From positions 62,001 to 126,000 of the forward strand of contig JAEPQO010000002.1 in NCBI GenBank assembly GCA_017640505.1: a DNA stretch of 64,000 nucleotides. The letters run 5' to 3'. The DNA is from Rhodospirillales bacterium. Lineage in GTDB: Bacteria > Pseudomonadota > Alphaproteobacteria > Rhodospirillales > Casp-alpha2. Under the pieces are notes generated by a model, which searched no databases, was not told where the DNA came from, and saw only the letters and a program-made list of their open reading frames with translations. A program made the position numbers and the translations under genes. Shown one piece after another: positions 47,685-52,811 of the stretch; within the stretch, counting starts at the first letter, position 1; each line of letters opens with the position of its first letter.

Positions 47685-47831
47685 GCTTTAGAAGTTCTCT
47701 CTCGTTGATGTGCAGCAGGCGTGCCAGCGCAAAGTGGTCGAAGATACCAGTTTAATATCTACGGAATATTTTTTGTAGCGCTACGTTCAATAGAACGCGC
47801 GGCCGCGGGTGAGGGCAGGTACGGCGCAATT

Positions 47832-47902
47832 GTCATTCCCGCAAAAGCGGGAACCCAGCCTTGCTGATGTTTGATCTGGGTCCCCGCTTTCGCGGGGATG
47901 AC
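47832..47902. repeat. 71-base palindromic repeat, copy 2 (right of helicase gene)
   Basis: Same length and orientation as the element at 45562-45632; outer hairpins GTCATTCCCGCAAAAGCGGG and CCCCGCTTTCGCGGGGATGA are kept. Similarity continues left to about 47807 (GGGTGAGGGCAG) and right to about 47955 (CGCTGTTTCC, then GGCCGACGG). It lies in the 314-base gene-free stretch 47685-47998, which holds nothing else recognisable apart from the helicase promoter region. Confidence 0.85.
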
Positions 47903-47998
47903 AAGGCTTAATCATAAATGACGCTGTTTCCTGGGCAGGCCGACGGCACAATCCGGTACTTCGGATAAGGACGGCTACGAAATAGCCTTTAACCGTGA

Positions 47999-48781: not shown

Positions 48782-50950
48782 TTAAATATCGATATCCTCG
48801 ACGAAGCGCGCGTGTTCCTGGATGTAGTTGAAGCGCAGTTCCGGCTTCTTGCCCATCAGCTGCTCGACCAGGCGTGCGGTCTGCTTGGCTTCCAGTTTCT
48901 CGTCGTCGGTGTGCGTCCCCGGCACGGTGACACGGATCAGCGTCCGGTTGGCGGGCGCCATGGTGGTTTCCTTGAGCTGCGCCGGCGGCATCTCGCCCAG
49001 GCCCTTGAAGCGGCTGACCTCGACCTTGCCGCGGCCCTTGAATTCGGATTCGAGCAGCTTTTCCCGGTGCACGTCGTCTCGTGCATACAAGGTCTTGCCG
49101 CCCTGCGTCAGGCGATAGAGCGGCGGCATCGCGAGGTACAGCGCGCCTTCCTCGATCAGGCCCGGCATCTGCTGATAGAAGAACGTCATCAGCAGGGATG
49201 CGATGTGCGCGCCGTCGACATCCGCATCGGTCATGATGATGATTTTCTCGTAACGCAGGTCGTCGATCATGAACCGTTCGCCGATGCCGCAGCCCAGTGC
49301 CTCGATCATGTCGGTCAGTTCCTGGTTCGCGCGCATCTTGTCGACGGTGGCGCTGGCGACGTTCAGGATCTTGCCGCGAAGCGGCAGGATCGCCTGGAAC
49401 TTGCGGTCGCGCGCCTGCTTGGCGGAGCCGCCGGCGCTGTCGCCCTCGACGATGAAAAGTTCGGTGCCTTCGCGGGTGTTGTTGGCGCAGTCGGCCAGCT
49501 TGCCCGGCAGCCTGAGCCGGCGCGTTGCCGACTGGCGCTTGGTCTGTTTGTCGTCGCGCTTCTTGAGCCGCACCTCGGCGCGCTCGATGGCGTGTTCCAG
49601 CAGTGCCGTCGCCATTTCCGGCGACGCCGACAGCCAGTGATCGAAGTGGTCGCGGACCGAGGTTTCGACCAGCTTCTGCGCGTCGGTGGTGGAGAGCTTT
49701 TCCTTGGTCTGGCCCTGGAACTGCGGGTCGCGGATGAACACCGACAGCATGATGTCGGACCCACCCATCACGTCCTCGGCCTGCAGCTTGGCGGCCTGCT
49801 TGTTCTTGATCAGCTCGCCGTAGGCCCGGAGCCCCTTGGTCAGCGCGCCGCGTAAGCCCAGCTCATGGGTGCCGCCGAGCGGCGTCGGCACGGTGTTGCA
49901 GTAGGAATTGAAGAACGCATCCTCGTCGACCGGCCAGGCAACGGCCCATTCGACGCGCCCGGCATTGTTCGGGAACGTCGCATCGCCGGCGAACGGCGTG
50001 TGCGTCAGGGTCTTGCGGCCCTTGAGCAGGCTCTCCAGGAAGTCGCCGAGACCACCCGGGAAATGCAGCGTCGCCGTTTCCGGCGTGTCGTCGTCGGCCT
50101 TGAGAATCTTGGGATCGACCGACCAGCGGATTTCGACGCCGCGGAACAGGTACGCCTTGGAACGCGCCATGCGGAACAGGGTCTGCGGCTTGAAGCGCGC
50201 GCCGGCGCCGAAAATCTGCGGATCGGGCAGGAATGTGATGGTCGTGCCGCGGCGGTTGGAAACGGCGCCGCCGTCCTTGAGTTTGGTTTTCGGTTTGCCG
50301 CGTTCATAGGTCTGTGCCCACAGCTTCTTGTCCTTGCAGACCTCGACGGTGAGCGTTTCGGCGAGCGCGTTGACGACCGAGAGGCCGACACCGTGCAGAC
50401 CGCCCGACGTCGCGTAGGCGTCGCCACCGAACTTGCCGCCGGAATGCAGCGTCGTCAGGATGACCTCGAGCGCCGACTTGTCCTTGAATTTGGGGTGCGG
50501 GTCGACCGGGATGCCGCGGCCGTTATCGCGGATGGTCAGCCGGTAATCGGCGTCCAGTTCGATTTCGATCCGCGTCGCGTGGCCGGCGACCGCTTCATCC
50601 ATGGAGTTGTCGAGAATTTCCGCCGCCAGATGGTGCAGTGCGCGCTCATCCGTGCCGCCGATGTACATGCCCGGGCGGTGACGCACCGGCTCCAGGCCTT
50701 CGAGAACCTCGATATCCTTGGCGGAATAGCTGTCCTTGGTGCGGCCGCTCGATCCGCCGTCGGATTTGGCCGACGATTTCGCCGATGATTTCGCGGGTTT
50801 CTCGGCAGTTTTCTGGGCGGTTTTCTTGCTCACGTTGCTCGCCTTCTTCTTGCCCGAGCTGCTGCCTTTGGCGGTGCGGGCGCTGTTTGTGGTGCCGGCC
50901 TCGGTATCGCCATCGCCGAACAGATCCCCCATATCACCACTACGTTCCAT
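48782..50950 (-). CDS. parE: DNA topoisomerase IV subunit B
   Basis: 722 residues. The GHKL ATPase has EILDNSMDEAVAGHATRIEI, RDNGRGIPVDPHP and TSGGLHGVGLSVVNALAETL. The TOPRIM domain shows ELFIVEGDSAGGSAKQARDR and IIMTDADVDGAHIASLLMTF, and the C-terminus is as in ParE, without the large GyrB insertion. The N-terminal 75 residues are an unusual Lys/Ser/Ala/Thr-rich tail with repeats of the KSSAK type. ParE with ParC decatenates replicated chromosomes. Only 69 bases separate it from the AT-rich gene upstream of its stop. Confidence 0.95.
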   Translation of the reverse strand: MERSGDMGDLFGDGDTEAGTTNSARTAKGSSSGKKKASNVSKKTAQKTAEKPAKSSAKSSAKSDGGSSGRTKDSYSAKDIEVLEGLEPVRHRPGMYIGGTDERALHHLAAEILDNSMDEAVAGHATRIEIELDADYRLTIRDNGRGIPVDPHPKFKDKSALEVILTTLHSGGKFGGDAYATSGGLHGVGLSVVNALAETLTVEVCKDKKLWAQTYERGKPKTKLKDGGAVSNRRGTTITFLPDPQIFGAGARFKPQTLFRMARSKAYLFRGVEIRWSVDPKILKADDDTPETATLHFPGGLGDFLESLLKGRKTLTHTPFAGDATFPNNAGRVEWAVAWPVDEDAFFNSYCNTVPTPLGGTHELGLRGALTKGLRAYGELIKNKQAAKLQAEDVMGGSDIMLSVFIRDPQFQGQTKEKLSTTDAQKLVETSVRDHFDHWLSASPEMATALLEHAIERAEVRLKKRDDKQTKRQSATRRLRLPGKLADCANNTREGTELFIVEGDSAGGSAKQARDRKFQAILPLRGKILNVASATVDKMRANQELTDMIEALGCGIGERFMIDDLRYEKIIIMTDADVDGAHIASLLMTFFYQQMPGLIEEGALYLAMPPLYRLTQGGKTLYARDDVHREKLLESEFKGRGKVEVSRFKGLGEMPPAQLKETTMAPANRTLIRVTVPGTHTDDEKLEAKQTARLVEQLMGKKPELRFNYIQEHARFVEDIDI

Positions 50951-51699: not shown

Positions 51700-52125
51700 A
51701 TGAGCGACAACGGTGCCTCCAACCCGGCCCAAGAAGAACCGCGCGGCGAGCTTGCACTCCGCACCCTGGCCATGCCCGCCGACACCAACCCGTCCGGCGA
51801 CATCTTCGGCGGCTGGGTCATGGCGCAGATGGACATCGCGGGCGGCATCACGGCCTGGAACCGGGCCGACGGCCGCGTCGCCACCGTCGCCGTCGACGGT
51901 TTCACGTTCCATCGGCCGATCTTCGTCGGCGACGTGGTGTGCTGCTATTCGGATATCGTCCGCACCGGCCGCACCTCTATCACGGTGCTGGTCTCGGCGT
52001 GGGTGCTGCGCGGGCGCCGGCCCGATCAGCGGATCAAGGTGACGGAAGGGACCTTTACGTTCGTCGCCATCGACGCCGACGGGAACAAGCGCGAGGTGCC
52101 GCCGCTGGAGTCCCTTCCGCACTAG
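51700..52125 (+). CDS. Acyl-CoA thioesterase, YciA-type hotdog protein
   Basis: 141 residues with an acidic N-terminal tail. The hotdog core reads ELALRTLAMPADTNPSGDIF, then GGWVMAQMDIAGG, with catalytic Asp and Asn-Pro positions as in YciA, and VAVDGFTFHRPIFVGDVVCC. YciA-type enzymes hydrolyse short and long acyl-CoAs to maintain CoA pools. AAAGGAAC precedes the ATG. The gene converges on the 31-residue microprotein gene, with 29 bases between stops. Confidence 0.92.
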   Translation: MSDNGASNPAQEEPRGELALRTLAMPADTNPSGDIFGGWVMAQMDIAGGITAWNRADGRVATVAVDGFTFHRPIFVGDVVCCYSDIVRTGRTSITVLVSAWVLRGRRPDQRIKVTEGTFTFVAIDADGNKREVPPLESLPH

Positions 52126-52154: not shown

Positions 52155-52250
52155 TCAGATCAGCATCATCGAGATGTAGGCGGAAACGAACAGCGTGCCG
52201 AGGGCCAGAAACTCGCTCAGGAAACGGCCTGCGTTGTGCCACTTATTCAT
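52155..52250 (-). CDS. Membrane microprotein, 31 residues, with LexA-like promoter
   Basis: The ATG at 52250 is preceded by AAGGAG at 52262-52257, 6 bases away, an excellent ribosome site. The product begins MNKWHNAGRFLSEF, then has one hydrophobic segment (LALGTLFVSAYISMMLI) to the end, so it should be a single-span inner-membrane protein with a short basic cytoplasmic tail. A further in-frame extension upstream would cross the promoter and is rejected. The GAAC-N7-GAAC array and near-consensus promoter elements lie 58-100 bases upstream. The architecture (29-31 residues, one helix, LexA-type control) is like that of Caulobacter SidA, a division inhibitor; no sequence homology is claimed. 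Confidence 0.72.
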   Translation of the reverse strand: MNKWHNAGRFLSEFLALGTLFVSAYISMMLI

Positions 52251-52307
52251 GATTTTCTCCTTCGTCCGATGCACCCGACCTGCGGGCTTGGTTTTCTGCC
52301 AAAAAAG

Positions 52308-52344
52308 GAACATTAAAAGAACATTATAAGAACAAAAAAGGAAT
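52308..52344 (-). promoter_or_regulatory. LexA-like box array, GAAC-N7 direct repeats
   Basis: GAAC occurs at 52308-52311, 52319-52322 and 52330-52333, each separated by exactly 7 bases, with a near match GAAT at 52341-52344 in the same phase. Read on the minus strand this is GTTC-N7-GTTC repeated, the direct-repeat form of the SOS box used by LexA in alphaproteobacteria. The array sits 58 bases upstream of the microprotein start and overlaps its promoter. It is the only such array I saw in the intergenic regions I scanned. Confidence 0.72.
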
Positions 52345-52349
52345 TTCAA
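52323..52349 (-). promoter_or_regulatory. Sigma-70-type promoter for the microprotein gene
   Basis: On the minus strand TTGAAA (52349-52344) is followed after 15 bases by TATAAT (52328-52323), a perfect -10. The -10 falls inside the spacer between two GAAC boxes, so a repressor bound there would block the promoter. The 15-base spacing is shorter than ideal; taking CTTGAA gives 16. Confidence 0.6.
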
Positions 52350-52427
52350 GCGTTTTTGAACTCCAAGCTTGATCTCAAACGCGTGCTTGCTCACGCTTGG
52401 AAAAACGTTAGTGGAGGAGTGTGTCCA

Positions 52428-52811
52428 ATGCGGTCACATGTCATGCTGGCGGCGCTTGCCGCGCTTTCATTGCTGCTCCCGGGGCCGCTTTCGGCGGACG
52501 AACCGGCTGTGCTCGACGTGACGGCGTTCGCCAATCCGGACGGCACGTACGGATTCAACGTGACGGTGACGCACCGCGACGAGGGCTGGTCGCACTACGC
52601 CGACAAGTGGGAAGTGATCGGCGGTTCGGACAACCGGGTGCTGGGGACGCGCACGCTCTATCATCCGCATGTCGACGAACAGCCGTTTACCCGCACGCTG
52701 AGCCATGTCGAGGTGCCCATCGGCGTGACCCAGGTGACGGTCCGGGCGTACTGCAACACGACCGGCGTCGGCGCGCGGACGTTCACGGTGACGCTGCCGC
52801 CCAGGAAGTAA
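52428..52811 (+). CDS. Exported protein of unknown function, 127 residues
   Basis: The ATG at 52428 is preceded by GTGGAGGAG, which decides the start. A signal peptide (VMLAALAALSLLLPGPLSAD) leads to a beta-sandwich-like mature protein with YGFNVTVTHRDEGWSHYADK, LGTRTLYHPHVDEQPF and VTVRAYCNTTGVG. His and Asp residues in the HPHVDE segment could bind metal. It is divergent from the microprotein gene, so the LexA-like array may also affect it, although the array overlaps the other promoter. No family recognised. Confidence 0.65.
   Translation: MRSHVMLAALAALSLLLPGPLSADEPAVLDVTAFANPDGTYGFNVTVTHRDEGWSHYADKWEVIGGSDNRVLGTRTLYHPHVDEQPFTRTLSHVEVPIGVTQVTVRAYCNTTGVGARTFTVTLPPRK

Follow-up and report, generated by a model that had tools for sequence, protein, structure and literature searches.

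A probable SOS-induced membrane microprotein and its predicted family in Rhodospirillales and Azospirillaceae

Introduction

Few bacteria are known to have an SOS division checkpoint, and most of those described are unrelated to one another in sequence. Does the locus described here hold another one? On the minus strand of the window, as we call the whole 64,000-nucleotide stretch of DNA analyzed in this study, a 31-codon open reading frame (ORF) lies behind a direct-repeat array of GTTC half-sites. A preliminary description had read it as a probable SOS-induced membrane peptide, perhaps a division checkpoint, and had likened its architecture to that of Caulobacter SidA while claiming no homology. 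SidA is a 29-aa, SOS-induced division inhibitor of the inner membrane that interacts with FtsW (PMC4211646). Deletion of sidA relieves the filamentation of a Caulobacter lexA mutant, and the published LexA motif of Caulobacter is GTTCN7GTTC, as in GTTCttgttatGTTC (PMC12700426).

Results

The microprotein gene

The ORF (52158-52250, minus strand) starts with an ATG at 52250 and its codon 31 ends at 52158, followed by a stop codon at 52155-52157; the encoded protein is MNKWHNAGRFLSEFLALGTLFVSAYISMMLI. A ribosome-binding site, AAGGAG (52257-52262, minus strand), lies six bases ahead of the ATG; both the 31-codon ORF and its AAGGAG site, as first described, can be read directly in the sequence. 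GGAG- or AGGA-type sequence likewise precedes the ORF in relatives, as judged by eye. The open frame reaches mechanically back to a GTG at 52394 (79 aa), and conservation supports the ATG at 52250 as the more probable start.

The ORF is kept as an ORF in all eight genomes available for the genus, including the window's own, and far beyond the genus, as described below. Its seven other copies in the genus are 74-97% identical to that of the window, 21 of the 31 residues are invariant across the eight sequences, pooled pN/pS is 0.19, and the differences at codon positions 1, 2, and 3 number 122, 81, and 311. Judged by these substitutions, the ORF evolves as coding DNA. The single membrane helix claimed earlier is also predicted here, both by hydropathy (maximum of 2.04 over 17 residues) and by AlphaFold2, which models one helix over residues 2-30 from eight sequences with a mean pLDDT of 90.8. 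Because its positive charges sit at the N-terminus, the window microprotein is likely oriented with that end inside.

The operator and the promoter region

The LexA-type array GTTC-N7-GTTC-N7-GTTC occupies 52308-52333 on the minus strand, between the microprotein ORF and a divergent gene, and is spelled GTTC-TTATAAT-GTTC-TTTTAAT-GTTC. A fourth, degenerate half-site lies in phase with it at 52341-52344 (GAAT on the plus strand, ATTC on the minus strand); by our own reading of the alignment, ATTC stands at this place in five of the eight genus rows. The GAAC half-sites noted previously at 52308, 52319, and 52330, spaced by exactly 7 bases, are all present, as is the in-phase GAAT at 52341.

This triple is the only one in the genome of 3.95 Mb, and the reversed-pattern control does not occur at all. 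Single pairs are common: 4 in the window versus 2.5 expected, and 154 genome-wide versus 53 for the reversed pattern. Two of the 21 pair sites in the 20 stretches of the own genome that we read were called intergenic, and a lone pair therefore says little. Within the genus, ORF and array are found together throughout, the array being triple in seven genomes and double in the eighth. Its mean identity is 0.98 in the half-sites, 0.68 in the spacers, and 0.51 in the flanks.

The genome has one match to the LexA DNA-binding domain and one RecA. Upstream of this lexA lies GAACTTAAGTAGAAC and upstream of this recA GAACACAGTTGGAAC. Both regions hold GAAC-N7-GAAC, which is GTTC-N7-GTTC on the opposite strand and hence of the same type as the microprotein operator. 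The interpretation of the array as a direct-repeat SOS box is borne out by these two genes, and the array also matches the published Caulobacter LexA motif (PMC12700426).

A TATAAT hexamer (52323-52328, minus strand), tentatively read as -10-like, lies within the array, with a -35-like TTGAAA 15 bp upstream of it by eye. Of the -10 element that had been proposed to overlap the array, the hexamer itself stands, whereas a sigma-70 promoter scan returned no site with 16-18 bp spacing.

A family across Rhodospirillales

With the single sequence as query, 40 of the 297 genomes searched in the order gave a match at E<=1, the best E outside the genus being 0.0017; E-values near 1 in these family searches are also reached by chance matches. 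Within 300 bp of 22 non-genus loci from this search, ten had the strict box (GTTC-N7-GTTC) and eight more its GTTG variant (GTTG-N7-GTTC), 18 of 22 in total. Two of the four boxless loci lie in long frames and one crosses stop codons; a boxless locus of family f14 (L052) was among the single-sequence matches.

We then used a profile, A3, made of 26 sequences: the 8 of the genus and 18 matches chosen with their ORFs and boxes already known. Matches after A3 were ranked by the profile alone. With A3, 184 of the 317 genomes searched in the order gave a match at E<=1. The box test set consisted of 100 consecutively ranked new matches in 97 genomes, with 170 bp searched upstream. A strict box was found at 68 of these loci and a strict or GTTG box at 84, counts that are not independent events since the genomes are related and many belong to the same genera. 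At the same 100 loci, the reversed pattern was found at none and the 170 bp downstream held no box, and shuffled upstream windows gave 1.15 boxes on average and 5 at most in 200 runs. Four higher-ranked new matches tested later all had a box (one strict, three GTTG), bringing the total to 88 of 104; below these 104 ranked matches, R. rubrum alone was fetched.

A box was present at 83 of the 94 profile matches whose protein does not exceed 45 aa and at one of the six longer ones, in which the called start precedes the box. Eleven of the 16 boxless loci are short ORFs (f9, f13, f15, f19, f20, and f26 among their families). By hand tally, 13 of the 17 families from which a short-ORF match was fetched have box-bearing members. 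Rhodospirillum rubrum, from the window's own order, was recognized by a plasmid of 53,732 bases that belongs to its strain ATCC 11170. Its copy, MGYGRMVRELCALAALFFTLYAWTVLGSATIV, scored E 0.152 in the A3 profile search and has GTTCCTGTTTTGTTC 60 bp ahead of its ATG.

The 94 short members are 21 to 36 aa long, 90 of them 24-36, and hydropathy reaches at least 1.6 in every one. An acidic residue (E or D) is conserved, in most members with F or L after it and then A-L (E/D-F-x-A-L), as is an aromatic residue near the middle of the helix, usually tyrosine. The tyrosine is invariant in the 83 sequences of alignment A4 and present in at least 90% of A5; many Azospirillum copies have phenylalanine in its place. 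As to the box, the spacer is T-rich, and 100 of 104 strict boxes have a T ahead of the second GTTC, a consensus that is independent of the search pattern, which did not select for it. The nearest box begins a median of 49 bases upstream of the start codon. A variant, GTTGCTATTTTGTTC, recurs in f20, and its TTGCTA may at the same time serve as a -35 hexamer. The GTTG-N7-GTTC variant is recurrent in f20, f6, f3, and f11, where its first half-site overlaps a possible, TTGCTA-like -35 hexamer.

These proteins matched no curated family. Pfam matched one of 26 members, at E 0.15, and NCBIfam none of the 26; PADLOC matched none of 45, and no PDB sequence was found at E<=10. PHROGs gave weak matches (best 0.015) in 6 of the 45 members and none for the window protein. 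Plasmids and phages had no match for the window microprotein, nor plasmids for two homologues. No paper on the family was found in the accessible parts of the open-licence PMC literature.

Two genomes with a box-bearing copy also encode a second family-like microprotein that has no box upstream, MEILKIGSDFAALLGMFAAGYLMLLLA (L171, G203) and MSLLKITGEFSALLSLFVVAYLMFIIS (L183, G154). These are possibly paralogues outside SOS control.

Azospirillaceae and the wider class

Among 387 sampled genomes of the class, 18 had a match at E<=0.1, the window's own included. The other 17 included three short ORFs that a strict box precedes (f71, two; f33, one) and four short frames without. In the order of f71, a grouping of the genome collection, the search gave matches at E<=1 in 59 of 82 genomes. 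The best-ranked 48 loci of this order were tested, two matches in frames of 457 and 477 aa being skipped, and a strict box was found at 28 of 29 and 18 of 19, that is, at 46 of 48; the 29 include the locus of one genome (G460) already counted in the class sample. Since a replicon piece of an f71 genome agrees with Azospirillum brasilense NZ_CP012916 in its coordinates and in 100% of its bases, f71 holds Azospirillum. The A. brasilense copy is MSILVFLRELAGLTALFGTLFVWTLLGHAAGF (L293), and some Azospirillaceae members are up to 66 aa long as read. The NCBI taxonomy places Azospirillaceae within Rhodospirillales, and whether this counts as a second order therefore depends on the taxonomy used.

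From these searches, the family appears as one of mostly 24-36 aa proteins with a single predicted helix, spread across Rhodospirillales and Azospirillaceae. Outside these two main groups, family-like short ORFs without a box were seen at L198 (G355; MISLRMTRDFVALGSLYATIYVSICFFEAIMF), L203 (G515; MKTIVKETLALTSLVLTLYTLFILAFALGAW), and L359 (G927; ...VTKKFVDDLAALFAIFFSIYLACVLAWHLNVYFFSAG). A Gallionella match (L216) was dropped as a piece of a 128-residue frame.

The order of Caulobacter

The holdfast gene HfaA marks families f82, f34, and f33 (6 of 23 genomes), and a plasmid of an f82 genome is 100% identical to a Caulobacter henricii plasmid; on these two grounds, f82 holds Caulobacter. The Rfam CC2171 RNA was rejected as a Caulobacter marker: its matches at E<=0.001 are spread over many families, in 79 of 337 class genomes (13 of them above cut-off), and it is therefore not confined to Caulobacter.

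Searched with profile A5, 135 of the 249 genomes of this order match at E<=5, mostly in long frames among the matches listed. Thirty loci gave no strict box and one GTTG variant, at a 159-residue frame, and 18 further short-frame matches gave none and one, at a 16-residue frame. With 0 of 48 strict and 2 of 48 GTTG boxes, this set serves as a negative control of the box test. SidA is expected in some of the 249 genomes and was not recognized among the 48 profile matches examined. Homology to SidA was thus not detected in these 48, a comparison by profile and box, and proteins of 29 residues can diverge past detection. With no box-bearing short member among these 48 save GTTG at the 159- and 16-residue frames, SidA gives no homology support for a role in division. 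By sequence, the resemblance to SidA is one of architecture, and the caution of the preliminary description on this point was well placed.

Neighboring genes

The microprotein gene is convergent with a 4HBT thioesterase gene (51700-52125, plus strand; Pfam PF03061, E 1.3e-18). It has the intergenic region with the array in common with a divergent ORF for a 127-aa protein (52428-52811, plus strand), for which neither Pfam nor NCBIfam gave a match. A type II topoisomerase subunit B with Pfam gyrase B domains, which we take to be parE, is encoded at 48782-50950 on the minus strand. In many families, the ORF likewise stands beside the thioesterase, with a gyrase-B-type topoisomerase farther out (many of the longer loci have it close to the ORF) and often the 127-aa gene divergent. 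Within about 450 bp (tblastn), the thioesterase was found at 41 and the 127-aa gene at 25 of the 100 profile matches. Other loci have other surroundings, for example a dihydrouridine synthase-like gene by our own reading of the translation. None of the neighbors that we read (among them the thioesterase, the gyrase-B-type topoisomerase, and the 127-aa protein) was recognized as a divisome gene.

Sorted by neighborhood, the 94 short matches had a box at 23 of 24 loci with thioesterase and 127-aa gene, 13 of 16 with thioesterase alone, 45 of 49 with none of the three neighbors, and two of four with topoisomerase alone; the one locus with the 127-aa gene alone (L171) had none. The box is independent of these neighbors, and the operator therefore follows the microprotein. 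As a separate observation, the 127-aa divergent gene is conserved and borders the same LexA array, and it may also be damage-induced.

Discussion

A 31-aa protein that annotation easily misses turns out to be a member of a large unnamed family, present in many alphaproteobacteria and usually encoded behind an SOS site. Combining a protein profile with the operator recovered this family of about 30 residues where single E-values resemble noise. Given the operator, its position, its conservation, and the way it travels with the ORF, we regard control of the microprotein gene by LexA as nearly certain. The reading of the window microprotein as a probable SOS-induced membrane peptide is supported by these sequence data. 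Of the three conditions named beforehand as refuting it, the two that sequence can address, a different operator at recA and lexA and an ORF that relatives do not conserve, are both contradicted by the results.

The sequences show a conserved coding ORF with one predicted helix, an operator of the type found at lexA and recA, and the joint occurrence of box and ORF in distant relatives and varied loci; what we say of damage induction, membrane topology, target, and effect on division is inference. The explanation that we slightly favor is a LexA-repressed single-pass microprotein of the inner membrane that would bind a divisome membrane protein and delay division until repair. In undamaged cells, LexA would sit on the GTTC array over the promoter and keep the gene off; upon damage, RecA-stimulated LexA cleavage would open the promoter. 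The short helix would then enter the inner membrane with its N-terminus in the cytoplasm and its C-terminus ending at the outer face, as its charges suggest. Its most likely partner there would be a divisome membrane protein that acts in septal peptidoglycan synthesis, for example FtsW or a protein associated with it, and division would be delayed until repair is complete.

The role in a division checkpoint is argued by analogy, and we consider the case for it evenly balanced. It is favored because SidA, the class's known LexA-controlled peptide of such size, is a division inhibitor that contacts FtsW (PMC4211646), and because FtsW seems to be the common point of action of other SOS membrane inhibitors as well (PMC13396833). 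YneA binds FtsW TM7, and low-confidence AF3 models also put SidA, SosA, and ChiZ at FtsW (PMC13396833). Like SidA, the window microprotein is a short, predicted single-pass membrane protein of the same size class under a LexA-type GTTC-N7-GTTC operator (PMC4211646; PMC12700426). Unlike SidA, with its published target FtsW, its partner is conjectural. It also resembles YneA of Bacillus, SosA of Staphylococcus, and ChiZ of Mycobacterium, small damage-induced membrane proteins thought to inhibit late division; however, YneA and ChiZ have a LysM domain and SosA an extended helix (PMC13396833), whereas the window microprotein would have almost no periplasmic part in the topology proposed. DidA of Caulobacter, a damage-induced division inhibitor, is likewise small and single-helix, but it has 71 aa, is SOS-independent, and interacts with FtsN (PMC4211646).

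A protein partner need not belong to the divisome. Once induced by damage, the microprotein could regulate some membrane enzyme or protease or join it as an accessory subunit, much as small respiratory or protease-modulating peptides do, with no direct effect on division; the 21 of 31 residues invariant in the genus and the tyrosine invariant in 83 aligned members would suit such a role as well, since they suggest a protein partner. An enzyme gene as constant neighbor is what this reading lacks, 49 of the 94 short matches having none of the three neighbors in the stretch fetched, and we think it rather improbable.

TisB of E. coli is a very short SOS-induced single-helix membrane peptide that is RNA-regulated, and the LexA operators of TisB and DinQ are of a different type from GTTC-N7-GTTC. 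DinQ of E. coli is likewise very short, SOS-induced, and single-helix, a toxic single-transmembrane peptide with antisense RNAs (PMC3567139). A peptide of this kind would insert in the inner membrane, lower the membrane potential, and slow growth, giving damage-tolerant dormant cells. The family, mostly 24-36 aa with one hydrophobic stretch, is of similar size; yet its helix conserves E/D-F-x-A-L and a mid-helix aromatic residue, a pattern that points to a surface for specific binding more than to unspecific depolarization. We consider a TisB- or DinQ-like function unlikely, and the RNA regulation of the E. coli peptides may be a further difference.

The operator might instead serve the divergent 127-aa gene (52428-52811), leaving the microprotein ORF a mere passenger, given that the array sits between the two divergent genes and that this gene is near 25 of 100 profile matches. 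The box is nevertheless retained where no divergent gene is visible, at 13 of 16 thioesterase-only loci and 45 of 49 with no known neighbor, and it is missing at L171, which has the divergent gene but no thioesterase. This very improbable reading is largely refuted. That so short an ORF, with no curated family, is untranslated and its transcript a small RNA, or is a chance reading frame, has a negligible probability in view of the pN/pS of 0.19, the 311 third-position differences versus 122 and 81, and a protein profile that retrieves box-bearing homologues.

Returning to the LexA-repressed division inhibitor, a broader proposal can be put forward tentatively, as a possibility rather than an expectation. 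One LexA-run microprotein family, spanning Rhodospirillales and Azospirillum and with one box-bearing outlier in another group, could be an old SOS checkpoint of much of Alphaproteobacteria that would stop septal peptidoglycan synthesis by binding the FtsW complex; SidA would then either have diverged from this family or have replaced it in the Caulobacter line. Since Rhodospirillum rubrum and Azospirillum brasilense, both cultivable, carry the family together with its LexA operator, the damage response of this large group can be tested directly.

Two minor observations concern the same genome. The translations of window positions 47721-47951, ...VIPAKAGTQ... and ...CHPRESGDPD...SRFCGND..., are what we take to be typical of an abundant intergenic repeat element. 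In addition, GTTCTTGATTTGTTC lies 20 bp ahead of an ORF with a CEHGCVYCYAR motif (C4:884800-888000, L258), presumably a radical SAM, photoproduct-lyase-like protein, and this ORF is a possible further LexA target.
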